Origin: Deltaproteobacteria bacterium
Lineage (GTDB): Bacteria; Desulfobacterota; Desulfarculia; JACQYL01
Length of the DNA stretch: 38,153 bases
Direction: 5' to 3'
Assembly (NCBI GenBank): GCA_016208165.1
Contig: JACQYL010000022.1
Coordinates: 1-38,153, forward strand
Shown piece after piece: positions 215 through 14,038 of this stretch (the stretch's first letter is position 1; each line of letters starts with the position of its first letter). A model generated the notes under the pieces. It was not told the DNA's origin, did no database searches, and saw nothing but the letters and a program-made list of their open reading frames with translations. Position numbers and translations under genes: made by a program.

Positions 215-718
215 ATGGCTGACAATGTGACGCCTCAGAGACGAAGCTGGAATATGAGCCGCATACGTTCGGCAGACACCAAGCCCGAAATGATACTTAG
301 ATCCGTATTACACCGAATGGGGTTCCGCTTCAGAGTCCACTGCCGAGGACTTCCGGGCCGGCCTGATATTGTCCTTCGCAAGTACCACACAATTATCTTC
401 GTTCACGGGTGCTTCTGGCATCAGCATTCGGGATGCATTGAGGCCGTTCGACCAAAGACGAACAAAAAGTACTGGATGGAAAAGCTTGATGGCAATGTAA
501 AGCGCGACGGGAGGAATATCCAAGCCCTCCGCGATGAAGGATGGCGTGTGTTTCGCTTCTGGGAGTGCGAGATTGAGAAAGATCCCATCGGCATTGCGGC
601 CCTAATAGCGAAGGAACTTCGGGGAGACACCAATGAGCCGGCGGGATATAGACTTCCAACACGGACTCAGCTGCTTAAGGCTGCTGAATCTCGCACGGGC
701 TACAACAAGAAGCGATAA
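215..718 (+). CDS. vsr: Very short patch repair (Vsr-like) DNA mismatch endonuclease
   Basis: Vsr nicks DNA 5' of the T in T:G mismatches made by deamination of 5-methylcytosine, and usually accompanies a cytosine-5 methylase. At 167 aa the protein is close to the family length. Key residues fall at almost the Escherichia coli positions: E25, catalytic D51 in GRPDIV, H64 and H69 in VHGCFWHQH, and zinc ligands C66, H71, C74 and C118. The N-terminal block MSRIRSADTKPE is the classic family opening. The start has an AGGTG site 7 nt upstream. The gene converges on the cytosine methylase with a 20-bp gap, so they are functionally linked but transcribed oppositely. The methylated site is unknown. 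A role as a strand-nicking part of a restriction system is possible but not shown. Confidence 0.93.
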   Translation: MADNVTPQRRSWNMSRIRSADTKPEMILRSVLHRMGFRFRVHCRGLPGRPDIVLRKYHTIIFVHGCFWHQHSGCIEAVRPKTNKKYWMEKLDGNVKRDGRNIQALRDEGWRVFRFWECEIEKDPIGIAALIAKELRGDTNEPAGYRLPTRTQLLKAAESRTGYNKKR

Positions 719-738
719 AAAGGCATGCCTTTCGAATT

Positions 739-1791
739 TCATGGGTGCAAAGTGCGGTGAATCGCCTTCCCTAATGCAAGGCCAAGCTGCGGTGGTATAG
801 CATCGGAAACCTGTCGGATCTGGTCACTGAGAGTTCCTAGCAGTTCGTAGTTTCTTGGAAAACCTTGGAGAAGCATAGCTTCGTATACGCTGAGTCGTCT
901 TTCCGCGTCAGGATGAACGTTGATCTCGCGGTTTCCATATGCAACTGTTAAGCTCGGCTTTTCCCACTCTAGAACACGAAATGACCGTCCCTGCTTATGT
1001 CCCTTGGATAGAGAACCATCGGTGAATTTCCGCGACCGAGGGTTCATGGTCCAGTGATTCGGATGAAATGCGATTTCATCCTTCCGTATTCCACGTTTGA
1101 AGAGCAATGGAGGTGGGAGTCCCTTCAATTTGCTTGCAACAGTCAGAGGAATAGTTGTCTCTGCTGTTGGAAACTTGAATTCAAGATCTGGGTATTTGCG
1201 TTTGTTGAAGCCCACGATGAACACGCGGCGGCGATGCTGCGCCACACCGAAATCGGCTGCGTCGAGTTCTCCCTCGAAGAGTTTGAAGCCCGCGCGAGAA
1301 AATAGCCTCTTGATGGTCGTATATTCATTCCGGTGCTTCGGCGATGTGATACCTTTGACGTTCTCGAATACGAAGAAATCGAGATCGTATTCCTCGTTAA
1401 GGATACGCAGCATGCATGCGTAGCGACGCGGTAAAAGATGCCTTGCATCGTTGCCATTGAAATGCACATTCCCGTTTGAAAAGGTCTGGCATGGTGCACC
1501 GCCAATCACCCCGCGTGGTGGTCCCGAGCTGCAGTTCCTACTGTAAAGTTGGGCGATGGTCTCAGGGTCTGTTTCTGCTAAATCAGCAACGTGACAGACG
1601 TGTTTGTCACGATTATGGTTATAACTCTCCACAGCTATCGCATCCACATCAAGAGCAAGTCCGATCGAGAATCCCGCTGACGAGAATCCGAGATCAAAAC
1701 CACCGCAGCCAGAGAAGAAGCTAACAATAACATCTTTCACCATCGGCTGTTTTTTATTTGTTTGTTGTTCCTCGTGTTGCATGGTTTTCAT
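739..1791 (-). CDS. DNA (cytosine-5-)-methyltransferase
   Basis: The enzyme transfers a methyl group from S-adenosylmethionine to C5 of cytosine in a DNA target. Conserved motifs appear in order: motif I FSGCGGFDLG (residues 26-35), motif IV with catalytic Cys in GGAPCQTFS (C101), motif VI FENVKG (142-147), motif VIII QHRRRVFIVG (185-194), a target-recognition region of about 90 residues, and motifs IX-X near RRLSVYEAMLLQGFP and SDAIPPQLG. At 350 aa it is a normal, complete M.C5 enzyme. Its ATG overlaps the stop of the upstream nuclease gene by 4 bp (ATGA), so translation is probably coupled. As last gene of the defence operon it probably marks self DNA. It occupies the place of DruM or DrmMII in Druantia type II and DISARM; the exact equivalence is inferred. 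Confidence 0.95.
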   Translation of the reverse strand: MKTMQHEEQQTNKKQPMVKDVIVSFFSGCGGFDLGFSSAGFSIGLALDVDAIAVESYNHNRDKHVCHVADLAETDPETIAQLYSRNCSSGPPRGVIGGAPCQTFSNGNVHFNGNDARHLLPRRYACMLRILNEEYDLDFFVFENVKGITSPKHRNEYTTIKRLFSRAGFKLFEGELDAADFGVAQHRRRVFIVGFNKRKYPDLEFKFPTAETTIPLTVASKLKGLPPPLLFKRGIRKDEIAFHPNHWTMNPRSRKFTDGSLSKGHKQGRSFRVLEWEKPSLTVAYGNREINVHPDAERRLSVYEAMLLQGFPRNYELLGTLSDQIRQVSDAIPPQLGLALGKAIHRTLHP

Positions 1792-2930
1792 TCTGTCTCG
1801 TATATGACAGTGTTCTGTGTTTCCGTATAGTCATCGGAGCGACAGTGATACATCAGGCCATAGATTGCCAGCCGGCCTCCTTTCGGTATGCGATTCAGGA
1901 GGGGGTGACGCTGTGTGCAATCCGTTAAGTTGCGGACCGTAATATAGTTTGACGTTGATAAATCGTCTTCTGCAAGCATCATACACACCTTCCCATTGCG
2001 CAGGCGTCTCATATCCTTGAGGAATCCCTCCACATCATAAGGCCACTTCTGCTGCGACTCTTTTCTCTTTGCGATCCAATAGGCTTGACACGCCGGCCTG
2101 AACAGACAATGCCTGCAATTCACCGCCTTCGGCGAGGCAAGGTCGGTGACATTCGCGCTTCCGTTCTTAACCTGAGCAATGCGCTTGTTAACAAATTGAA
2201 GAAATGAGCTTGCTTCTGCGAGCAGAAGCTCAGCATCTTCTGGGACGAATATTACCTTTACCGGCGGGCCTTGAAGCGGCACTACTTCCAACCGACTAGG
2301 CCAAACTCCACACTTTAGCCGATATAGGGCCGCATAGAGCTTCAACTGAACTTTGTATGCCCGTTTGATTTGGCCGCAGCTTTCATCTGTTCCTGACTGC
2401 AATACGGCACCGGTTTTGTAGTCAGACAAGACGACACCGGCTCTTGTCATCCTAACGAAATCAATGTATCCCCCGACGCGACCATCGTCAGACTCGACCC
2501 ATAGTTCAAAGCCTGTGGGTTCTAAGGCTTGCCTGGTACCTTCGTTTTGGGCTCGCAAGACATTGTGTGCTATCTCGGCAGCCCTGCGACATGACCGGAT
2601 CTTTCGGACTTCAAAGTCAGGAATAATTCTGCTTAAAGGCACCTGGTGACGTCTCAGTGCCGATAAGGTCATCTTTTTCTCTACCTGGGAAATCAGCTCG
2701 TCCCAAGTGGCCTCAATCTTTTCATTCCCCCCGCCGTCCAATTGACCATGTCCTGCTGCTTCGAGAAGACGATGGATTACGATGCCGAGTTCCGCCATAG
2801 GTGATGGTGGAAGGAGAGGTTCGTTGCCCGACGCAGTCCAGATCTCGCGCAGGAGGCAGGACTGCATCGCCGTAAATCGTGCTGGCGAAACACGGCCCAA
2901 CTGCTTAATAGTTAGCTTCTTCAAACCCAT
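1788..2930 (-). CDS. PD-(D/E)XK nuclease of the Cas4/AddB type, likely Fe-S cluster
   Basis: RecB-family nuclease signs are clear. There is an early helix with His in LGIVIHRLLE (about 48-57), Asp in GGYIDFV (D157), the catalytic pair in SDYKTG (D170, K172), and a later Q-x-x-x-Y helix (QLKLYAALY). Four cysteines sit as in Cas4 and AddB iron-sulfur nucleases: C25 near the N terminus and C272, C275, C281 (CRHCLFRPAC). This predicts a 4Fe-4S cluster clamp and exonuclease or end-processing activity. Residues about 300-380 form an extra beta-rich tail, possibly an OB-fold (inference). The gene lies 19 bp after the helicase gene and overlaps the methylase by 4 bp. It has 380 aa and looks intact. 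Its exact family name within known defence systems is not certain. Confidence 0.85.
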   Translation of the reverse strand: MGLKKLTIKQLGRVSPARFTAMQSCLLREIWTASGNEPLLPPSPMAELGIVIHRLLEAAGHGQLDGGGNEKIEATWDELISQVEKKMTLSALRRHQVPLSRIIPDFEVRKIRSCRRAAEIAHNVLRAQNEGTRQALEPTGFELWVESDDGRVGGYIDFVRMTRAGVVLSDYKTGAVLQSGTDESCGQIKRAYKVQLKLYAALYRLKCGVWPSRLEVVPLQGPPVKVIFVPEDAELLLAEASSFLQFVNKRIAQVKNGSANVTDLASPKAVNCRHCLFRPACQAYWIAKRKESQQKWPYDVEGFLKDMRRLRNGKVCMMLAEDDLSTSNYITVRNLTDCTQRHPLLNRIPKGGRLAIYGLMYHCRSDDYTETQNTVIYETE

Positions 2931-2949
2931 CTGTTTTTTGGGGTTGTCA

Positions 2950-5900
2950 TTATACTCCTAGCCGCTGATACACCCAGCTCATTCGGCGGTGCAGATTGAA
3001 TGTGTCCACAATCATAGTGTCATCGTCTTGACCGAGGGTAGCGAAAGCTTCTGCAAGGATTCCGTCTGGGTGGGCGATGCTCCAAAGGGGATGGTTGAGT
3101 ATGACGTTCCTCCCCGCAATTGTCCAACCGTGTAGAGGTCCGAATTCCGCAGGTTCACAGGATTGAAACGATTGGCAGAAAGTGGTGCGAAGTACGTCTG
3201 AGAAATCCAACCATCCGGAGAGTTCCGGGGGACCGAAATCGCCATCGACACCGCAAGAGTATGTCGCGTCGGAAAGAATCCGAAGCACGGACATGCCTAG
3301 TCTCCAGTCCAACAGGCTATGGTAACTCATGTTTCGATACAGGCAGAGACAGTCGTAGCACGCTGATTGGCAGCTCTGCGCATGTTCAGCGGAGAGAAGC
3401 TTGCCAATGAAGGTGTCATCACCGTACTCCGGCCCGGTGATTATATCGAGTATCATGGACCAGTTGCTATCCTGCGACAGCCAAGCCGTGAAGCCGGCCC
3501 CATTCTCCAGGTGGTCGTTCAGAATAAGTTCACCCGCGTAGGTTTCGTCATCTAACTCGACGCCCCGCACGTTGCTGATGTCAATCTCCTCTGGGTCAAT
3601 ATCAAGCTCCTCAGCGACAACTGAACGCAGTATAAAACCTGCCGAGTAATAGGCGGCTTTCACCGCGGCCCCTTGGCCAAGTTGTGATATCCTTCCATGT
3701 TCATCACGGGCGAGCAAATCAAGGCATAGGGTCTGTTGCAGCGATTGGGGTCGAATTCGCAGCACGTCCGTGACTTTCGGGGCCGCCAAAGCAACTGTGT
3801 CAATCCCTGGTGTCTCCGCAGTGAAAGATACCTTGTTATCCCCTCTCACATTTTGATATCGCTCGTCAATCCACTGGTGGGGCAGCGTGACGCCTCCGCG
3901 GCTCCATCGGGCCGTCCCAAGTGCTCCAGTAAACAAGCGACCCGCACGATCATTGATTCGGTAGACATGGCCACCAAAGGTTCGAACCAGACAGGTGTTC
4001 GTGCCCGGAACGACTGTGGGAGGCTCATCAGTCCTTTCTGCCACAGAACTCGTGCCGCGTGGAAGGAACTCGTCATCTCCCTTCGCATCGACGCCATGGC
4101 TGAAAGAAGTCCTGAACGCTGACGGTACGACGATCACAAACACGCGGAACGCATTCTCACCCTCACGGCTATTGCCGCAGTCCGGGCAGCCATCAGGCCA
4201 TATGTCTTGGTTGCTGGTGTCGGCAAAGTGGCAGAGATCGCACCGCGCCATCAACATTCTTCGTGGAAATGGATTCGAATCGACTGGTCTCCATCCACCT
4301 CTTGGATCATTTATCAGAGGAGCTGTAAATCCGATTGCAGTATAGACCCGTTTGTCCTTGGTTTTCTGCGAACCTGGGGCAAACTCTGTGATCGCAAGAT
4401 CAAGATCACGGTCGATTGACAAAGCATCGTGGCCCCGGAAGCCATGATACAGAAGTCTAACACGAGATGGCATACCATACATCGGGAGAATCGCCCCTTC
4501 TCCAAGTCGCTCAGCCAAGCCATCGCCAGCGAGTTCCAAGCTGTTTGCGCATTGCTCGATATCCCCGAAAAGGCCTTCGCGGATGTACCTGACCATCTCA
4601 TCAGCGGAAACACCCTCTGCACCGACTAGAATGGCATCTACGATTTGCGGTACTTGTGGAGAGGTAGACAGCCTTCGCTCAACTGCCTGTCTGCGATCTG
4701 CCATGTTCAGCCAGTCGGCAACCGTTCCGAATTCCCCATGGCTGTCGGGGGGTATGGGACTGTCCCACCAACGAACGCCCGCATCACGGAACGCCTCATA
4801 CAAGCACGCCTTCGCCACAAGGCGACGTGCGATTTCTAATCTTGTCATGGACAGGAATGGGACAGGGGGCAAATCTCCGGTGATGCGGCGGGGACGACTA
4901 TAATAGAATTCATCATGGCTGCGGCCCCTGCACAGCGTTAAGACAGCGGCAAAGGCTTGGCCGCGCCTCCCTGCCCTTCCAACACGCTGCTGGTAGTTGA
5001 ACCGCATAGGCGGCATGTTTGCCAATACAACAGCCTGTAGGTTACCGATGTCAACACCGACCTCCATCGTGGTCGTCACACTGAGCAGGTCGATAGAATC
5101 CACCAGAGGAATCGGCGGACGTGTTCCTGCTGCACCGCCCTGGACCACCACGTCTCTGAAGCATCGCTGCCGATCGGGTTGATCGTCTGTTTGAGCCGTC
5201 AGTTCTTCGCAATGCATTCTAAGAGGTTTCCGCCGATCAACCGCCTCACTTGCGTAATAGTTTCTGCCGTAAAGCGCCTCACACTGCGCATCCGGATCGA
5301 TACCCAACTCCGCAAGACAACCTGTACAGATCCCCGCCGCACGGTGCATGTGCACACGCTGGCAAGACGGACAGATCCAAAAGGGATCATTCTGAAGGCC
5401 GATTCTCACAAGTAAACGATGAGCTTGGAGCTTCGCGCTCGCATGCCCTCCAGCTTCGCAGATGGCATCCCAAGTAGAGGCAAGAACCGTGGGTGCGTCA
5501 ACACCATGCAGTTGCGCGCAGGCTTGTATGTAGTTCCGCAGGCGCGCTCGTGCCGGCGGCTGTAGCCAGTCTGTCCAATCGTCTAAGCGGTCGGGCGCTG
5601 GCTGACGTTCCTGATGATAGCGATAGAGATCCCCCAAAATGCGAACGCAGCCATGACAGAGGTCCCGAAAGGTATTTGTCGCGAGGGCTACACGGCCTGC
5701 GAGTTGCTCCCAAACTTGCTCAGAGAGATCGAGGCACGCATAGCCCAGACCGGCGGCCTCAAAACCGAAGTACAGTCGGCTGAACAGCACGTTCATGATC
5801 TCCGTTCGCACCTTGCCTCGGACGCGGTCTCTTCGCTCGACTGCGCTTTCGGGAAGCCCGTCTCGCCAGCACCTACTGTCGTTTGCGTAGTCGAAAAACT

Positions 5901-8826
5901 CAGTCCAATCATGATCTTCGCCTTCAAAATTAAACATCTGATACATCACGTCGTTGCCGGCAGGATTGATCCCCAGCTGCTTGAGACGTTTAATCAGGAG
6001 CAATGAGCGCGTACCGGATGCGTCCTCGTCCCCTCTTTCATACAGTACGCGTAGCGGGACCATTCGAGTATTGGCTCGCTGCCTGATTTCCCCCAGTTCG
6101 TCTGCGGCCCTGTCTCTTTCCTGCTCAAGGGTTTGACGGAAAATATCGGAAAGTCCGTCCGGTATTGGGGTTCTTTCTCTTTCTATATTTTGAAGAAGCT
6201 GGGCCACCGTCTCTGGATTATTTGTTGAGTAAGCGACAGCCTCAGGACATCGAGCCTCCCCATATGCCTCCAGGTCTGCGAGTAGAAAGCCCTCACCCAG
6301 AGCAACACGGTGCAACTCGTCATACATGGCTTCACGCACAAGATCCAGATAGTGCGTTCTCTCAATCCCGTTGGAGATAGACGCCGCGTCTTCCCTGCTA
6401 TCAGAGAATACGACAAGCTTGCGAGTCTCCCCTTCGGGAAGGCTGTAGAATAGTTCCTTTGAGAGAAGCTGACTGACTCGCGAGAAACCCGTTCTGAAAC
6501 CGCGTATGGGTGAAGTACGATATAGCCGCCGACTGTAATCGGCCGCACAATTGGGACAGCAGGCAGGTAGCGCCGAGAAATCCTGCTCAGTTTCGGTGCC
6601 ATCAACACCAGGAACCACATACAGGTATCCAGAGATTGCATAACCTTCTGGTGGAGTCGCACCATTTGGGGCATCCGTGACACGACCGGTGATCGCATCA
6701 AGATGCTTCGGTGCCCATCGCCCGCGTTCGGACCCATCACCAACGACTCGTGGTTGACGCCACTGTCGTGCCTCGGTGTTCAGCGTGCTTCTGCCGTGCG
6801 GCCAGAATATCGCGAAGTCATCATAGGTTCTCCTGTCCACGAAACGAGCAGCCTGTTTGTCTGGCAGTCCCTCTAAGTCGGGATCCGTACTCAATATCTC
6901 TATACCGTTGCCTTCCGGGTTTCGCAGACGGCTGCCTCCAAAGAAGACAGTTCCGCACTGTTCACAATAGAGGAGTTCCAGAACTCGGTGTTGCTGGCCG
7001 GGACTTCCGCAGAGGATTCGGTTCTGTGAGAAGAGCCTGCCCGTCGGCCGTACATCATCCAAATGCCCAGCCTCGCACTGGCAGCCTGGTAGAACACACG
7101 CCCATAGGCCCTCTATATTCCTAAAGAACCAGTGCAGCCTGAATGTAGGTAGTGATGTCGCATCTTGCCGTGAGGCAGCAATCCCGCGGGCTACAAGGAG
7201 TCCCCTGATGGCGTCCATTGCGACCTGCTCATCATCTGCGTTAGCGAACACGCGCGTCGCAAAACCTGAAAGTGATACGGCTCTCGTACGTGCACCGTCG
7301 ACGCACGCGCTTAGCACGTATGCTGCAATCCTCTCCTGTTGAGACTCAAATGCAGCGCAGAGCTTTTCTTTAGGGTCGTCGCCACCTGCCTCTGGGTCGA
7401 GTGTAGCAGCCAACTGGATGCACGATTCCGTGAAGGTTTCTTCGTTGTGCTCCTGGTAGCTTCGGGCCAAGGCCGCAAAGGAGGCGCTGTCAAGAGGCGG
7501 GCCTCCTACGTCAGGGATCGGCTCCTCAGAGCCAGGGATAATCTGTTCCGGTTCCCACTCGCACCCGAAAAAGTCGGATAGAAAAGTCAAGCTATCAGCA
7601 TTGCCGGGATCGAGGGACGCACTGGAGCCAAGAATGCGCAACTTTGGATCAGTGGGGGTGAGGCCCAACCTGCGAAGCAAAAGGCGCAAGAGGTAAGCAA
7701 CTTCAGTCCCAGAAGTGCCACGGTACAGGTGAAGTTCATCGATTATCAGATGAAAGACGTTACCAGGCTGCTCAAGCCACTGTCGGGTCTGCTGAAATAT
7801 CGGCGAGTCAGCTTCCCTCATTAGCATAATACTGAGCATGCTGTAATTCGTGATGAGGATATCAGGCGGGGACTGCTGCATGTCCCAACGAGAGCGCATC
7901 TCAGCGCCATCAAGTCGCGGGAAAAAGCAGATGATATCGCGGGCTACTTCCCGCTCGCTTTCTGTTGTTGCCTCCGCTTCCTTCTGCGCAGCGTGCTCGG
8001 CAGCGGCCGTTGCACCACGATCCAAGTCGACAAGCTCCCGCGCCAGTCTGTCGATCCGTGGACGGTCCGGGTTCCCCCGTGGGTTCTGCTCATGGCCGGG
8101 CACAGGTGTATTGCCCGTGTATCGACCAAAGTATATTCTATTTCCGTTCATATGATCAGAACACCACTGGCGAGTCTGGGGCGAATCAAGAGAACGGCGA
8201 AGCCTCGTCAGTTGGTCTTCAACAAGGGCATTCATGGGATAAAGTATCAGGGCACGCATCGCTGCCGGTCTTGTCTCATGTCCCCTCTGTGGTACTCGGT
8301 AGGATCGCGTGATTCGGTTGTTGTGCCTACATGAGGCTTGCCAATCCTCGTTTGACCACCAATCATTGACGTGCGGGAGGGGTACGTTCGGGGCTTCCCA
8401 GTTACGGCTCTCGGAAGCGAGATATGCAAAAAGAGGAAGCAAGAAAGATTCCGTCTTACCCGAGCCTGTGCCTGCGGTGACGACAGCGTTATGGCCTGCC
8501 GCTGCGAGCTGCAACATGGCTATCTGGTGTGTGTATAGAGGATAGTTACCCACCAAGCCACAACGAGCCAGATCTTTGAATCGCTCCAATGCTTCTGGGG
8601 TCATCGCCGATAGCTCTTCTGGCCTAAGATCTGCAAGCGGCCTGTCTGTCTGGTAGCGGGGCAAGGGCTCAATCCAAGGCTCCTGGTTCAGAATCCCCGG
8701 CCGCCTGAGCATCTCTTCTCGTTCGCGTTCCAGTCCAGGGAACTGTGTACCAAACGCGGTTTTAAGATAAAGGATGAAGTTGTCTCGGATCTTCTCAAAA
8801 GCACCGATAGGATCATTCATGGGCAT
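2950..8826 (-). CDS. Giant superfamily 2 DNA helicase with DUF1998 module (DruE-like)
   Basis: This is an ATP-driven nucleic acid translocase of 1958 aa and the core of the putative defence system. In order it shows a Q-like LYTHQ (98-101), Walker A AGTGSGKT (118-125), motif Ia LYPMNALVEDQ (about 195-205), Walker B/DExH box IIDELH (361-366) and motif III GSSAS (about 400). Then come a zinc-type cluster (CEQC, later CCPNC), motif IV VVFSDSRED, a long helical insert with another Cys cluster, and motifs V-VI TTTMEVGVDIG and QQRVGRAGRRGQ (about 1277-1287). The C-terminal DUF1998/MrfA-type module has a four-Cys signature ending CYDCLCLY followed by H-S-L-L-D-W (about 1818-1840). Length and architecture fit Druantia DruE better than the shorter DISARM DrmA. 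The start may be M1 or M3 (8820), since GAGG is better spaced from M3. It overlaps the DUF3883 gene by 14 bp. Confidence 0.9.
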   Translation of the reverse strand: MPMNDPIGAFEKIRDNFILYLKTAFGTQFPGLEREREEMLRRPGILNQEPWIEPLPRYQTDRPLADLRPEELSAMTPEALERFKDLARCGLVGNYPLYTHQIAMLQLAAAGHNAVVTAGTGSGKTESFLLPLFAYLASESRNWEAPNVPLPHVNDWWSNEDWQASCRHNNRITRSYRVPQRGHETRPAAMRALILYPMNALVEDQLTRLRRSLDSPQTRQWCSDHMNGNRIYFGRYTGNTPVPGHEQNPRGNPDRPRIDRLARELVDLDRGATAAAEHAAQKEAEATTESEREVARDIICFFPRLDGAEMRSRWDMQQSPPDILITNYSMLSIMLMREADSPIFQQTRQWLEQPGNVFHLIIDELHLYRGTSGTEVAYLLRLLLRRLGLTPTDPKLRILGSSASLDPGNADSLTFLSDFFGCEWEPEQIIPGSEEPIPDVGGPPLDSASFAALARSYQEHNEETFTESCIQLAATLDPEAGGDDPKEKLCAAFESQQERIAAYVLSACVDGARTRAVSLSGFATRVFANADDEQVAMDAIRGLLVARGIAASRQDATSLPTFRLHWFFRNIEGLWACVLPGCQCEAGHLDDVRPTGRLFSQNRILCGSPGQQHRVLELLYCEQCGTVFFGGSRLRNPEGNGIEILSTDPDLEGLPDKQAARFVDRRTYDDFAIFWPHGRSTLNTEARQWRQPRVVGDGSERGRWAPKHLDAITGRVTDAPNGATPPEGYAISGYLYVVPGVDGTETEQDFSALPACCPNCAADYSRRLYRTSPIRGFRTGFSRVSQLLSKELFYSLPEGETRKLVVFSDSREDAASISNGIERTHYLDLVREAMYDELHRVALGEGFLLADLEAYGEARCPEAVAYSTNNPETVAQLLQNIERERTPIPDGLSDIFRQTLEQERDRAADELGEIRQRANTRMVPLRVLYERGDEDASGTRSLLLIKRLKQLGINPAGNDVMYQMFNFEGEDHDWTEFFDYANDSRCWRDGLPESAVERRDRVRGKVRTEIMNVLFSRLYFGFEAAGLGYACLDLSEQVWEQLAGRVALATNTFRDLCHGCVRILGDLYRYHQERQPAPDRLDDWTDWLQPPARARLRNYIQACAQLHGVDAPTVLASTWDAICEAGGHASAKLQAHRLLVRIGLQNDPFWICPSCQRVHMHRAAGICTGCLAELGIDPDAQCEALYGRNYYASEAVDRRKPLRMHCEELTAQTDDQPDRQRCFRDVVVQGGAAGTRPPIPLVDSIDLLSVTTTMEVGVDIGNLQAVVLANMPPMRFNYQQRVGRAGRRGQAFAAVLTLCRGRSHDEFYYSRPRRITGDLPPVPFLSMTRLEIARRLVAKACLYEAFRDAGVRWWDSPIPPDSHGEFGTVADWLNMADRRQAVERRLSTSPQVPQIVDAILVGAEGVSADEMVRYIREGLFGDIEQCANSLELAGDGLAERLGEGAILPMYGMPSRVRLLYHGFRGHDALSIDRDLDLAITEFAPGSQKTKDKRVYTAIGFTAPLINDPRGGWRPVDSNPFPRRMLMARCDLCHFADTSNQDIWPDGCPDCGNSREGENAFRVFVIVVPSAFRTSFSHGVDAKGDDEFLPRGTSSVAERTDEPPTVVPGTNTCLVRTFGGHVYRINDRAGRLFTGALGTARWSRGGVTLPHQWIDERYQNVRGDNKVSFTAETPGIDTVALAAPKVTDVLRIRPQSLQQTLCLDLLARDEHGRISQLGQGAAVKAAYYSAGFILRSVVAEELDIDPEEIDISNVRGVELDDETYAGELILNDHLENGAGFTAWLSQDSNWSMILDIITGPEYGDDTFIGKLLSAEHAQSCQSACYDCLCLYRNMSYHSLLDWRLGMSVLRILSDATYSCGVDGDFGPPELSGWLDFSDVLRTTFCQSFQSCEPAEFGPLHGWTIAGRNVILNHPLWSIAHPDGILAEAFATLGQDDDTMIVDTFNLHRRMSWVYQRLGV

Positions 8827-9610
8827 GTTCCTCAGATTCCAATTGTTTGGCTGACACCTGCCATTCTATACGAACAGTGAGATTGACGATTCTGCGAGGG
8901 GTAAACAAGAGAGACGGATTGGAGAAAACACGTAGCTCCGGGGTCTTGCGGAGATTGACAAAGAACGCCAGATAGTATTCGGTGCTGTCCTGTGCAGTCT
9001 GCCACTCTTTGTCTGTGAACAACACGCCTCCCTCTCGGTCAGCCACACCTTTGACTTCGACAAATTGAGCAGCTTCTCCGTCTCTGACCAGGAAATCGTA
9101 ACCACATCCATCCTCTCTTCTGTCCTCAATAGTCCCACGAAACGGGGTTCGTCCTTCACGAAACCATTCGACAAAAAGCTCTTCGGCCATCCTTCCAGTG
9201 GCACCGCGCGGGATGAAACGCCAATTTTCGCGACGTTCCCTCTTCAACTCCTTCAAAACATGCATAACCTCCCGTGATTGTCGATACGCGGGGTCCCGGA
9301 TCAAGTCTCTCACGAAGCCAGTGAGAGCATCGAAGCTTAAATCATTCAATAGTTGTAGGACCTTCTGACGACTGGGACCCAGTTCCCTCTGATGCCAACC
9401 TGCACGGGCGTTACTGAAAATCGGATCGAAATCGTCTCTCTTGTTCTTGACAGACCGCGGATTTACCCCCAGCTGCAGGCCGATGTCAACAAACGCCTCC
9501 TTAAATCTGGAGTATCCAAGGCGAGCAAGGGCTTCGGCATCAAACTTGGAGAGGTAGAAGGCCGCTACCAACGCCAGCCTGCTCCCATCGGTCATCCCGG
9601 CTTCATGCAT
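8813..9610 (-). CDS. DUF3883 (NO VEIN C-terminal) domain protein, PD-(D/E)XK-like
   Basis: The 265-aa protein has an N-terminal part (about 30-80) with a helix-turn-helix-like stretch ending in KNKRDDFDPIFSNARAGWHQR. This stretch is typical, as I recall it, of proteins in restriction-type loci. The C-terminal half (about 138-240) fits DUF3883: GRMAEELFVEWF, then D172 in GCGYDFLV, E185-V-K187 in FVEVKG, then TDKEW. This is the D...ExK layout of PD-(D/E)XK nucleases. A DNA-cleaving or DNA-sensing role is inferred. The start has GAGGAGTG about 8 nt upstream. Its end overlaps the helicase start by 14 bp, so the two are probably translationally coupled. It is the second nuclease-like gene of the operon. 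Confidence 0.82.
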   Translation of the reverse strand: MHEAGMTDGSRLALVAAFYLSKFDAEALARLGYSRFKEAFVDIGLQLGVNPRSVKNKRDDFDPIFSNARAGWHQRELGPSRQKVLQLLNDLSFDALTGFVRDLIRDPAYRQSREVMHVLKELKRERRENWRFIPRGATGRMAEELFVEWFREGRTPFRGTIEDRREDGCGYDFLVRDGEAAQFVEVKGVADREGGVLFTDKEWQTAQDSTEYYLAFFVNLRKTPELRVFSNPSLLFTPRRIVNLTVRIEWQVSAKQLESEEHAHE

Positions 9611-9654
9611 GCTATTTCACTCCTCGACAAGGACGTAAGTTTCGCTGCAAATCA

Positions 9655-10644
9655 TCATTTTATCTCTGCCCGCGCCGGAGACTGCCCCACTTTCGCGAGA
9701 GCAGCCACCGCAATTTGCGGTGGCACATCTTCAAACATCAGCCAATCCTGGCACTCAAAGCCCTGAACCAAAAACTCGTTTGCCCTGTGGACAGGTGACT
9801 TGCCGGAACACAGGCACACGGCTCTCGCGACGATTGTCGGAAGTGGTATTTTAATTGGCACACAGAGTCTAAATCGCCTCTCATCATACGCGGTAGCGGT
9901 GATGCCTTTTGACTTCAAAAGAAGGTATCGTCCCCAACTCAGATCCACTTCTGCCCCATGGCTATCCCGGAAGAAGACATGCAAAGGGAGTTTGGTTGCC
10001 GGATTGAGATAGCGTGTATAGCGAGGGAATGAGTTAGAAGTCGCGCGAACGAAGCCATTGGAGTTGAGGCTGAAATCGAAACGTGTCCAGTTCAACGTTT
10101 CGGGAATCTGAAAGTTTAGCGTTGCTTCGTATTCGGATAGTGTCCCACACCAGTTCACGAGCGTCCATGCTGGAGGAACGGCGGCCCAACGGATCCGAAG
10201 GTCTGAACAGAAGTCAACCATTGCCTCTTCCGATTCCGATTCAAACATAATAGTATCAGGCAACAAGCCGAGTGGCCCTGGACGGCGCTCGCCAATTAGC
10301 CGGATTGATCCCCCTCGTGCCCGCACCGCTTCCGCCATCTCTTTCTGTGTTCGAATGCATCTGGCCCCAGTCATGACAGCGACTGGCAAGCCGGCTCGGG
10401 GGAGGCGGCAAAGCGCGGGCGGAGTAATGGCGATAGTGCTCGTTCCCCGTTCATAGTGCGCGTTACAGTGGCCCAGCGCCTCCAAGCATTGGAGCAAACC
10501 ACTCCGAGTTGCTGTACCGTCAGTCATCCGGCCCCTCTCGGAACGGGTCGATGATAAAAAGTCGACGGCTTCACAATATTGGGGCCATACCATGCTACCG
10601 CGTGCAGAAATAACAAACAGTAAGCGATTTGGATCAACGGACAT
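9655..10644 (-). CDS. Uncharacterised defence-operon protein, 329 aa
   Basis: I do not recognise a named family. The chosen start is ATG at 10644 (protein begins MSVDPNRLLFVISARG). GAGGTG lies 7 nt upstream and this start overlaps the previous gene's stop by 11 bp. A longer frame back to 10809 lies inside the upstream gene and is unlikely. Residues about 1-110 hold a compact alpha/beta-looking stretch (VWPQYCEAVDFL, then GLLQCLEALGHC). Weakly conserved-looking beta-rich sequence follows, with many aromatic residues and no obvious Walker, nuclease or membrane motif. The WPQYCEAVDFL segment looks like a helical interaction element. Context makes it a partner or regulator of the helicase/nuclease set. 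It could correspond to a DruF- or DruG-type subunit, but I cannot confirm this from sequence. Confidence 0.7.
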   Translation of the reverse strand: MSVDPNRLLFVISARGSMVWPQYCEAVDFLSSTRSERGRMTDGTATRSGLLQCLEALGHCNAHYERGTSTIAITPPALCRLPRAGLPVAVMTGARCIRTQKEMAEAVRARGGSIRLIGERRPGPLGLLPDTIMFESESEEAMVDFCSDLRIRWAAVPPAWTLVNWCGTLSEYEATLNFQIPETLNWTRFDFSLNSNGFVRATSNSFPRYTRYLNPATKLPLHVFFRDSHGAEVDLSWGRYLLLKSKGITATAYDERRFRLCVPIKIPLPTIVARAVCLCSGKSPVHRANEFLVQGFECQDWLMFEDVPPQIAVAALAKVGQSPARAEIK

Positions 10645-12688
10645 GGCGCGCCACCTCTTTATATTTCCCCCACAGCGAGCGAAGCGTTGGATGAGGCGGT
10701 TCAGTGATCCTTTTTCTGCTGTACCATAGGACATTCCGCCATCGACGACATCGTTTCTGATCTTTACAGCCGGTTCTTCCGGGTTCTTCGTTCGCCAGAT
10801 CAGTTCCACAGTAGACAGCGGTTCCTTTGCCTCGTCCTTGCATAACTATGGCCCAGACTGGATGCCAATCCATGGGAATGGTCTCATTCGGACACTCAAC
10901 GATCTCGCCGGGGTTGCGTCCAACGAAGTAGACTCGGTGTCCCGCGCCCGGCGGAAAGTAAATCTCAGGATTGAAGTCCGGTGGAGTGAATCCATCGACA
11001 ATGGGACCGACGCATGTCTCCCCGGCCTTGCTCTCAGTATGCCGCCCAAACTTGTCAAGGTAGACTTCCGGTACCGTATCTCGCCATGCCACCGTTTCCA
11101 GAGCATACAGGGACCTTCTACAGATGCATTCTCCGTCGCGCCTGACCTCAACGATGAGTCTGTGTGCGCATATAGCGTCGGGGATGGTGTACATACCTGT
11201 CTCAGGATCTAAGTCCAGCCGGTGATCGTTACAGAAGACACTCGGACCCTCAAACGCTCCTGTCACCTCAAGCTGGGGTAACGCAAAGGTGAAGTACTGA
11301 TTCCCTTTCACTCTTAGCCCGCCTCGGAAATGGATCCGCAAGATACTTGGGAAAGCGAGAAATGGAAAGTCGTCCCGGATAAGAGCATCTGAATTTACAT
11401 TTCCTATTCCGTAGAGACGCCATCCCTCGGGCAAACCTGATGTCAAGTTGACTTCGGAGAAGCCATCGCAACACTCATTTCCCCATGAGAGAAGCTTTTC
11501 TGCACACTCATTGTTGGCAAGCAGGTAGAACGGTTTGCCTCGTGGTATCTGGCTGTGTTCTACGAATCCGTCAAAGCCAAAAGGCGTCGCACTTACCATG
11601 ACTCTAATCGGACGATTGGAAAACGTTGTTTTCCATGAGTGTTCTCGATCAATCAGGGAGAGACCGTCTATCCAATCGAGACGGGAGGGATCGAAGATGA
11701 TGGGTTGTGTTTCTGAAACGGAAAGAGGCGTTGACCATCCCTGCCAGTCTTCATAGCAGTACAACGGTTCTTGCATACCCTCTCCAATTAGCTGTAACCC
11801 TTCATCGGGATACTCACGATTTGTCCTGCAACGGAGAGATAAACGTGCGGTTCCTGCGGTACGATCCAACACCATCGCCAAACTCAGAATTCCCCTTGAA
11901 AAAATGCACGCGTGTCCGTCTTCATGCGGCAGTTGCGTAACCGATCCGTCCCAGTGTTCGAGTTCGCCCAGAAGCACTTCGATCAGCGCAGCGCGAATCG
12001 AAGAATCGCCTTCTGTTTTTGATCTGAGAAGCTCCTTGGTACGGGGTCTCAGACGATGATGCGGGTCTTCTGTGAGCAGATAGGCGAATTCCCGATCTGA
12101 TGGGGGTGAGTGAGGATCAAAGCCTTTCTCTGCGAATAGAAAGGGCAAGTTACCGCGTTCTCTGTCTGTGACTAAAGTCTGCGCCCTTGGTAAACCCACG
12201 TGCCTCCATTCTCCGACAATATCCGCATCGAATATGCCCCAATCCCCTTGTTTGTCCTGGTTTGACCAGACTGCAAGATCTTCCCAAAGACGGTACATGT
12301 AGAGGAATGACGGGTACATGCCTGTCTCTGGTTCTTCGCCAAGCAAAGACCGAAGACCGGGGTAGTAGGCGTGACGAGCGAAACCAACATCAACCGTGTC
12401 AGCAAGAACAAATAAAGCTAAGTAGTTAAGATATGGCGGGTACACGAAATTCCGAATTCGCCAGCCTTCGAGGGCCTGCAGGGCCTGTTGGCAGACGCCC
12501 CTGCCAAGACGAGTATTCCAGCGGGGACCAGTCTTCACTGCAGCAATGAAATCATTGAGATCGGCATCGTGGGGAGCGCCGATTTCCGTAATGACATCCT
12601 TTGTGACATACAGAAAAACACGGACCCCGCTTCGGTCTGGATTAAAGAAACGTGCACCGATTGCGTTATTCCACTTCAGATAGTCCAT
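10634..12688 (-). CDS. Uncharacterised large defence-operon protein, 684 aa (first gene)
   Basis: This is the first gene of the operon, with AGAAGG 7 nt before ATG. No enzymatic motif is recognised. The N terminus (DYLKWNNAIGARFF, then VRVFLYVTKDVITEIG) resembles openings I associate with large uncharacterised proteins of phage-defence loci. Residues about 40-260 look helical, with aromatic-rich blocks. From about 260 to 600 the sequence looks beta-rich, with alternating hydrophobic residues as in sandwich domains. The stretch FNPEIYFPPGAG, then YFVGRNPGEI, near 600 is distinctive. No signal peptide or transmembrane segment is visible. A large beta-rich scaffold or DNA-sensor role is only a guess. 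The stop overlaps the next start by 11 bp. Confidence 0.75.
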   Translation of the reverse strand: MDYLKWNNAIGARFFNPDRSGVRVFLYVTKDVITEIGAPHDADLNDFIAAVKTGPRWNTRLGRGVCQQALQALEGWRIRNFVYPPYLNYLALFVLADTVDVGFARHAYYPGLRSLLGEEPETGMYPSFLYMYRLWEDLAVWSNQDKQGDWGIFDADIVGEWRHVGLPRAQTLVTDRERGNLPFLFAEKGFDPHSPPSDREFAYLLTEDPHHRLRPRTKELLRSKTEGDSSIRAALIEVLLGELEHWDGSVTQLPHEDGHACIFSRGILSLAMVLDRTAGTARLSLRCRTNREYPDEGLQLIGEGMQEPLYCYEDWQGWSTPLSVSETQPIIFDPSRLDWIDGLSLIDREHSWKTTFSNRPIRVMVSATPFGFDGFVEHSQIPRGKPFYLLANNECAEKLLSWGNECCDGFSEVNLTSGLPEGWRLYGIGNVNSDALIRDDFPFLAFPSILRIHFRGGLRVKGNQYFTFALPQLEVTGAFEGPSVFCNDHRLDLDPETGMYTIPDAICAHRLIVEVRRDGECICRRSLYALETVAWRDTVPEVYLDKFGRHTESKAGETCVGPIVDGFTPPDFNPEIYFPPGAGHRVYFVGRNPGEIVECPNETIPMDWHPVWAIVMQGRGKGTAVYCGTDLANEEPGRTGCKDQKRCRRWRNVLWYSRKRITEPPHPTLRSLWGKYKEVARHVR

Positions 12689-13775: not shown

Positions 13776-13787
13776 TGGCGTCCCCAA
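13776..13787. repeat. 12-bp copy of the tRNA-Glu 3' end (possible att-like repeat)
   Basis: TGGCGTCCCCAA is identical to 13961-13972, which is the CCA end, discriminator and acceptor stem of tRNA-Glu. Such repeats arise when elements integrate at a tRNA 3' end. It could also be part of a decayed tRNA copy. Confidence 0.45.
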
Positions 13788-13852
13788 TGCCGCTGCGCGG
13801 GACTTCGCCAATTGTTTTCCGTGGCTGTCGGTGCTCAGGGCGCTTTGAATCC

Positions 13853-13896
13853 CGCCTTGGCGGGATTGCCGGCGTGAAAGAGCGGGATGTCCTGGG
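13853..13896 (-). other. tRNA-Glu-like relic (T-arm and anticodon-arm fragments)
   Basis: The 14-mer TGCCGGCGTGAAAG (13867-13880) is identical to the anticodon region of tRNA-Glu (13991-14004). It is followed by TGTCCTGG in nearly the same spacing (21 versus 19 nt) and preceded by a TTTGAAtCCC T-arm-like piece. A hairpin ATCCCGCC/GGCGGGAT interrupts it. No full cloverleaf can be folded, so I call it a relic and not a gene. Confidence 0.4.
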
Positions 13897-13960: not shown

Positions 13961-14038
13961 TGGCGTCCCCAAGGGGATTTGAACCCCTGTTGCCGGCGTG
14001 AAAGGCCGGTGTCCTGGACCAGGCTAGACGATGGGGAC
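13961..14038 (-). tRNA. tRNA-Glu (anticodon UUC)
   Basis: A complete cloverleaf: acceptor stem GTCCCCA/TGGGGAC, D-arm, anticodon loop CTTTCAC (anticodon TTC at 14002-14000), T-arm with GGTTCAAATCC, and encoded CCA. The T-loop carries A where GTTCGA is more usual (GTTCAAA), which is tolerated. It is co-transcribed after tRNA-Lys. Confidence 0.97.

Follow-up and report, generated by a model that had tools for sequence, protein, structure and literature searches.

Positions 215 to 12,688 of contig JACQYL010000022.1 (assembly GCA_016208165.1, Deltaproteobacteria bacterium), within a stretch of 38,153 nucleotides (nt) that is called the window here, carry a vsr gene and a six-gene operon. As judged from its sequence, this locus probably belongs to the type II/IV group of Druantia, with the components DruF-DruL-DruE-DruK-DruM and Vsr, is guarded by its own methylase and has gained a NOV_C (DUF3883) nuclease. 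It is a known kind of defence system, and what is new is the NOV_C accessory nuclease together with its recurrence across unrelated systems. From the predicted proteins we infer biochemical activities, an order of events, a joint action of NOV_C with Druantia and an anti-phage role. The genes are the following (aa, amino acids):

215..718, plus strand: vsr, mismatch (T:G) endonuclease, 167 aa, convergent to druM (TIGR00632, 4.7e-44; Pfam Vsr, 2e-29)
739..1791, minus strand: druM, cytosine-5 DNA methyltransferase, 350 aa (PADLOC DruM2, 5.2e-73; Pfam DNA_methylase, 3e-46)
1788..2930, minus strand: druK, RecB/Cas4/AddB-like PD-(D/E)XK nuclease, 380 aa (PADLOC DruK, 4e-19; PDDEXK_1, 1e-16)
2950..8820, minus strand: druE, giant YprA/DUF1998-family SF2 helicase, 1956 aa (PADLOC DruE2 and DruE4; Pfam DEAD and Helicase_C)
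8813..9610, minus strand: NOV_C/DUF3883 PD-ExK nuclease gene, 265 aa, the extra gene of the locus (Pfam NOV_C, 2e-13)
9655..10644, minus strand: druL, 329 aa (PADLOC DruL4, 2.5e-57)
10634..12688, minus strand: druF, 684 aa (PADLOC DruF4, 2.2e-182)

Assignment of the locus to Druantia

A search with the PADLOC-DB models, which an earlier reading of the letters alone (the sequence-only reading) had proposed as a check, matched five of the six operon proteins to Druantia components, namely DruF, DruL, DruE, DruK and DruM. The mark of all Druantia types, the giant YprA/DUF1998-family DruE, is present by model match and motifs, with E=0 and 1835.7 bits over 1954 residues for DruE2 and 1762 bits for DruE4, and the type IV trio of DruE, DruF and DruL is complete. 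The type II mark DruM is present as well, DruM2 being the best methylase model and DruE2 the best DruE model, whereas no DruG model matched any of the seven locus proteins at E<=0.01 (for DruM and DruE, among the best 25 families). Since DruL of type IV and DruM of type II occur together and DruG was not found, the locus mixes the two types. Type II is reportedly due to Doron in 2018. Types I and II have been assigned to 'Type IV CoCoNuT' (PMC12458937), and type IV is marked by DruL and defined without DruM and DruG (PADLOC 2021; PMC8565338), a definition with which the DruM2 match at 5.2e-73 inside this operon does not agree. Excluding DruM from type IV looks too narrow, because DruM also lies directly downstream in four related loci (L023, L038, L041 and L048). 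In this locus and its relatives, PADLOC types II and IV are therefore not cleanly separated. In the test for DISARM, DruE gave weak DrmA matches (about 30 bits, in the helicase motifs) and no DrmB was found with the PADLOC models.

A profile built from three aligned DruE proteins recovered 33 related loci, some of which end at contig ends, and with L077 added a total of 34 was examined. DruF-DruL-DruE forms the common core in nearly all of the 33, which come from cyanobacteria, Bacillota, archaea, Verrucomicrobiota and others. The complete order DruF-DruL-DruE-DruK-DruM is kept in Chlorobium (L041), the archaeal Methanophagales (L023) and Methanosarcinaceae (L038), and Clostridiales (L048), the last of which also has a convergent vsr at the matching place, its product being 45% identical to Vsr of the window. 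DruK without adjacent DruM was seen in six loci (L025, L027, L028, L029, L032 and L077). In the DruE tree, the window stands beside Chlorobium with full support. The order in other genomes, a further check named in the sequence-only reading, is thus conserved for five genes, and the NOV_C gene is not part of it.

That reading had left open two classifications. A relative of Druantia type II is borne out by the five model matches and by the gene order kept in distant genomes. The other, a new type within the wider DISARM/Druantia group, was rejected on the same two grounds and is highly improbable: the mixed signature and a NOV_C protein that lies outside every PADLOC Druantia model would favour it, but DruE scores 1836 bits against a Druantia model, shares 77% identity with its counterpart in the Chlorobium locus, where all five genes are likewise present, and falls inside this clade in the DruE tree, and the conserved five-gene order largely refutes it already. 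The reading had named hits of all six proteins to one known system as speaking against novelty; this was found for five of them, with conserved order, and it is the NOV_C gene that survives. Similarly, the composition of two nucleases and a mismatch nickase around one helicase proved less unusual than supposed, since helicase, DruK, methylase and convergent vsr also occur together in the Clostridiales locus, although, of all Druantia loci examined, the window alone showed the second nuclease.

The open reading frames (ORFs) of vsr and the dense operon were found as the sequence-only reading had placed them, and the domain calls (Vsr, DNA_methylase, PDDEXK_1, DEAD with Helicase_C, NOV_C) agree with the enzymes it named; the Vsr, DNA_methylase, PDDEXK_1 and NOV_C matches lie far above chance level. 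Its two large unknown proteins are both present but known to PADLOC, as DruF and DruL. The longest ORF of druL spans 9655-10809 with a GTG start at 10809; the start is most likely the ATG at 10644 instead, as homologues begin there and the overlap with druF then comes to 11 nt. Likewise, the helicase, listed at 2950-8826 (1958 aa) before start correction, most likely starts at the third codon (8820), since its homologues start with MNDPIG. With druL/druF, NOV_C/druE and druM/druK overlapping by 11, 8 and 4 nt, respectively, and the other genes nearly touching, the six minus-strand genes look like one translational unit.

Among 63 genomes from the class and 395 from the phylum, only the own genome had DruF, for which reason the locus looks like a sporadic acquisition. 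Scans of IMG/VR with DruE and NOV_C, made with regard to viral origin or spread, gave no match, and no DruE was found in GenBank phages. Apart from this, a decayed-looking second copy of tRNA-Glu (window 13776-13870 and 13961-14038) lies downstream of the tRNA-Glu gene, towards the Druantia operon, with a 14-nt sequence, TTTCACGCCGGCAA, and the 3'-terminal 12-mer, TTGGGGACGCCA, both recurring within about 190 nt; the decayed copy may be an island integration scar. The same genome holds a second DruE-like helicase, closest to the DruE1/DruE3 models. It consists of two overlapping ORFs of 899 and 741 aa (L073:2415-7312, contig C134) beside a 1202-aa protein without PADLOC match, and is perhaps a split or broken second Druantia. 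On a plasmid of Hymenobacter cellulosilyticus (L013:2632-17808), a divergent vsr-methylase-GHKL ATPase-Z1 cassette adjoins a broken DruE operon, which is another joint occurrence of such a cassette with a DruE operon.

The NOV_C gene and its homologues

The NOV_C gene sits between druL and druE, and a profile search found none in the 33 related loci or in L077. It was not found in 12 genomes holding related Druantia loci either, and a single-sequence scan of genome contigs gave no match. The 154-nt druL-druE spacer of Chlorobium holds no detectable NOV_C remnant, the alignment score being that of shuffled sequence. The protein carries the motif GYDF...E(V/L/I)KG, which is conserved in 11 full-length proteins, and the GC content at third codon positions (GC3) resembles that of the neighbouring genes. 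These observations bear on the possibility that NOV_C is a chance insertion between druL and druE without a role in Druantia defence. Its presence in one of about 35 loci and the spacer without trace of it in the closest relative would fit such an insertion, but the catalytic residues are kept, the stop overlaps druE and so ties the gene into the operon, GC3 is like that of the neighbours and the family is repeatedly present in defence operons, which makes this explanation unlikely.

Plasmids and about 1,300 genomes of four phyla were searched for homologues, and ten full-length proteins outside the window, 24-42% identical, were obtained in the following surroundings (hyp, hypothetical protein):

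L009 (Hymenobacter): vsr-methylase-GHKL-hyp-NOV_C-GHKL-Z1(MzaC)-PDDEXK-AIPR
L010: NOV_C-AIPR-Z1
L056: DrmE-NERD helicase-DrmA-DrmB-NOV_C, with convergent DrmMII and MutY-like gene
L066 (another phylum than L056): DrmB-(mobile-element genes)-NOV_C-DrmMII-MutY-like-DrmE-like-NERD
L067: NOV_C, MutY-like gene, methylase
L057: methylase-NOV_C-NgoFVII-type (PLD) enzyme-vsr
L069: NOV_C-methylase-GHKL-hyp-vsr
L055 and L058: NOV_C-vsr
L068: NOV_C alone

A cytosine-5 methylase and/or a deamination-repair gene (Vsr or MutY-like) lies near NOV_C, within the stretch fetched, in eight of the ten loci. As a yardstick, the 5.7-Mb genome of the window has two cytosine-5 methylase genes, and a random gene in it would have one of them within 20 kb in ~1% of cases, which is a rough estimate from one genome and not a formal control. 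In the two DISARM loci from different phyla (L056:7155-19203 and L066:1-17259), which also encode DrmMII, a NERD-UvrD helicase and a MutY-like glycosylase, NOV_C comes after DrmB. In DISARM, the place behind DrmB is typically that of the PLD nuclease DrmC (PMC12458937), and in L056 it is taken by NOV_C; the two loci may represent a form of DISARM with NOV_C substituted for DrmC. Furthermore, three cyanobacterial proteins more distant than the ten homologues (L070:5088-5891, L071:6238-6999 and L072:5703-6455) have the N-terminal domain of the NOV_C protein and end in an HNH nuclease. To go by these sequences, the N-terminal domain is a module that combines with nucleases of different kinds, and it may serve in recognition. 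Tentatively, NOV_C with its N-terminal domain might be a portable 5-methylcytosine-gated nuclease, recruited independently by Druantia, DISARM (in two phyla) and Mza/Z1 systems, where it would supply the cutting that the helicase lacks. If this is true, NOV_C would be an effector that Druantia and DISARM have in common with classical restriction-modification. Members of the family stand next to methylases again and again, in Druantia, DISARM, Mza and simple restriction-modification loci, and the PADLOC models used here count it in none of them.

Predicted activities and proposed working

In an alignment of 32 DruE proteins, the helicase motifs of the window DruE were intact, i.e., Walker A (GTGSGKT), DELH and motif VI (QQRxGRAGRRG). 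The DUF1998 region that had been read in the helicase stood in part: the Pfam DUF1998/MZB model was not called, but the zinc-cluster cysteines C1819/C1823/C1826 are kept across the alignment. The C-terminal Vsr-like domain retains VHPLW, and its catalytic D and HxH are missing in 32 of 32 proteins, in agreement with the inactivated Vsr domain reported for DruE of types I and II (PMC12458937). By contrast, DruK keeps GxxD...DYK...QxxLY and four cysteines (25, 272, 275 and 281) in eight aligned proteins. Given these motifs and those of NOV_C, cutting, if any, would have to come from DruK and the NOV_C protein. DruM carries the motifs APCQ, ENV and QHRRR, and the catalytic region of Vsr (PDIV...HGCFWHQH) is intact in the alignment. 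Vsr and MIG families can both deal with T:G mismatches from deaminated 5-methylcytosine. In Moorella thermoacetica (L036:305-2086), the DruM-like methylase encoded upstream of DruE carries a fused MutY-like glycosylase domain (HhH-GPD, Fe-S cysteines), by analogy a possible fused counterpart of Vsr that would act on such mismatches. In the own genome, moreover, another cytosine methylase gene, unrelated to druM, is accompanied by a vsr gene of its own (L074:5438-7892, contig C25).

DruF and DruL are fused in Planktothrix (L018) and another cyanobacterium (L046), which argues for their acting together. AlphaFold models were good for DruL (pLDDT 90.5) and fair for DruF (pLDDT 80.9), and fold searches of the Protein Data Bank (PDB) with both gave no confident match. 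The DruF model has a helical N-terminal part followed by predicted beta-sandwich domains, of which residues 449-535 weakly resemble an Ig-like sandwich (VIA Z up to 5.7, rmsd 2.4, 77 residues); the DruL model combines an alpha/beta part with an N-terminus weakly resembling a winged helix (VIA Z up to 6.8, rmsd 2.9, 82 residues). As leads only, the sandwich would be reminiscent of the Ig-like domains in DruH, which is the likely sensor of phage in Druantia type III (PMC13192584), and the winged helix would make DruL a DNA-binding adaptor; with Z of 5-7, families other than those listed may fit as well. An inactivated CnuB-like GTPase with coiled coil has been described for types I/II as 'Type IV CoCoNuT' (PMC12458937), and the DruF model matched no structure with confidence (best Foldseek E 1e-2, VIA Z 5.7), nor did Pfam call a domain in the protein.

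We propose that DruM would methylate cytosines at a host-specific site and thereby mark self DNA, while Vsr would repair T:G mismatches left by deamination of the 5-methylcytosines made by DruM. DruF and DruL would detect infection or DNA entering the cell, and would load DruE or license it, and DruE would move along DNA and expose single strands. DruK (RecB/Cas4-like) would cut in trans, as would the NOV_C protein in the window locus, because the C-terminal nuclease of DruE lacks catalytic residues. NOV_C most likely would cut DNA without the DruM mark, similar to a Type II restriction enzyme.

Alternatively, two separate systems may share one transcript, a DruF-DruL-DruE-DruK Druantia and a Type II restriction-modification set of DruM, NOV_C and Vsr, in which NOV_C would cut alone at unmethylated DruM sites, without help from DruE. 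A Type II restriction function has been presumed for DUF3883 (PMC10609329), and NOV_C homologues stand with a methylase and Vsr or a MutY-like gene outside helicase systems (L057, L069 and L067), as would be expected for such a set. However, DruM accompanies the Druantia core in Chlorobium (75% identical) where NOV_C is absent, thus DruM did not arrive with NOV_C, and the position of NOV_C directly after DrmB (L056) or between DrmB and the methylase (L066) suggests use with helicases. We regard this arrangement as possible but doubtful. The literature search found no paper covering both Druantia and DUF3883; one containing both DISARM and DUF3883 was ruled out as a relevant link, being an unrelated plasmid list.

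Several points weigh against a methylase-guarded Druantia with an added NOV_C nuclease. Many type IV loci, including most of those in cyanobacteria, have neither DruK nor DruM, which makes both dispensable for the core. Only a single Druantia operon proved to contain NOV_C, which may therefore be a recent passenger, the DruM recognition site is presumed, and the weak fold matches of DruF and DruL (Z under 8, below trust level) could reflect common arrangements. Moreover, the literature search found no experiment on type II/IV Druantia. The only worked mechanism is that of type III (DruH-DruE; PMC13192584, PMC13316683), whose DruE was reported to engage replication intermediates containing single-stranded DNA as a helicase-nuclease (PMC13192584); by analogy, this action is carried over here to types II/IV, with the nuclease supplied in trans. 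For types II and IV, for which the literature search found no mechanism, the proposal offers a concrete division of labour: DruE with a dead nuclease domain, DruK and NOV_C as the cutting enzymes, DruM to mark self DNA and Vsr or a MutY-like enzyme to repair 5-methylcytosine damage.

Comparison with known systems

The closest relative, the locus of Chlorobium sp. Tobar13m-G12 (L041), has the same five-gene order, with identities of 56% for DruF, 61% for DruL, 77% for DruE, 52% for DruK and 75% for DruM, and differs in having the 154-nt druL-druE spacer, no NOV_C gene and no vsr seen. With Druantia type IV, the locus shares strong model matches for DruE, DruF and DruL, and it differs by the possession of DruM, DruK, Vsr and NOV_C. 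With type II, it shares DruE2 and DruM2 as best models and the inactive Vsr-like domain at the C-terminus of DruE, whereas no DruG match was obtained and DruF is divided into DruF and DruL. The Mza/Z1-AIPR cassette of Hymenobacter (L009) has vsr, a cytosine-5 methylase and a 38% identical NOV_C in common with the window, but comprises GHKL ATPases, a Z1 helicase, PD-(D/E)XK and AIPR proteins and no YprA helicase. Finally, the two DISARM loci with NOV_C resemble the window in their YprA-family helicase parts, cytosine-5 methylase, NOV_C and an enzyme repairing 5-methylcytosine deamination, and have DrmA/DrmB/DrmE instead of DruE/DruF/DruL and a MutY-like repair enzyme instead of Vsr.

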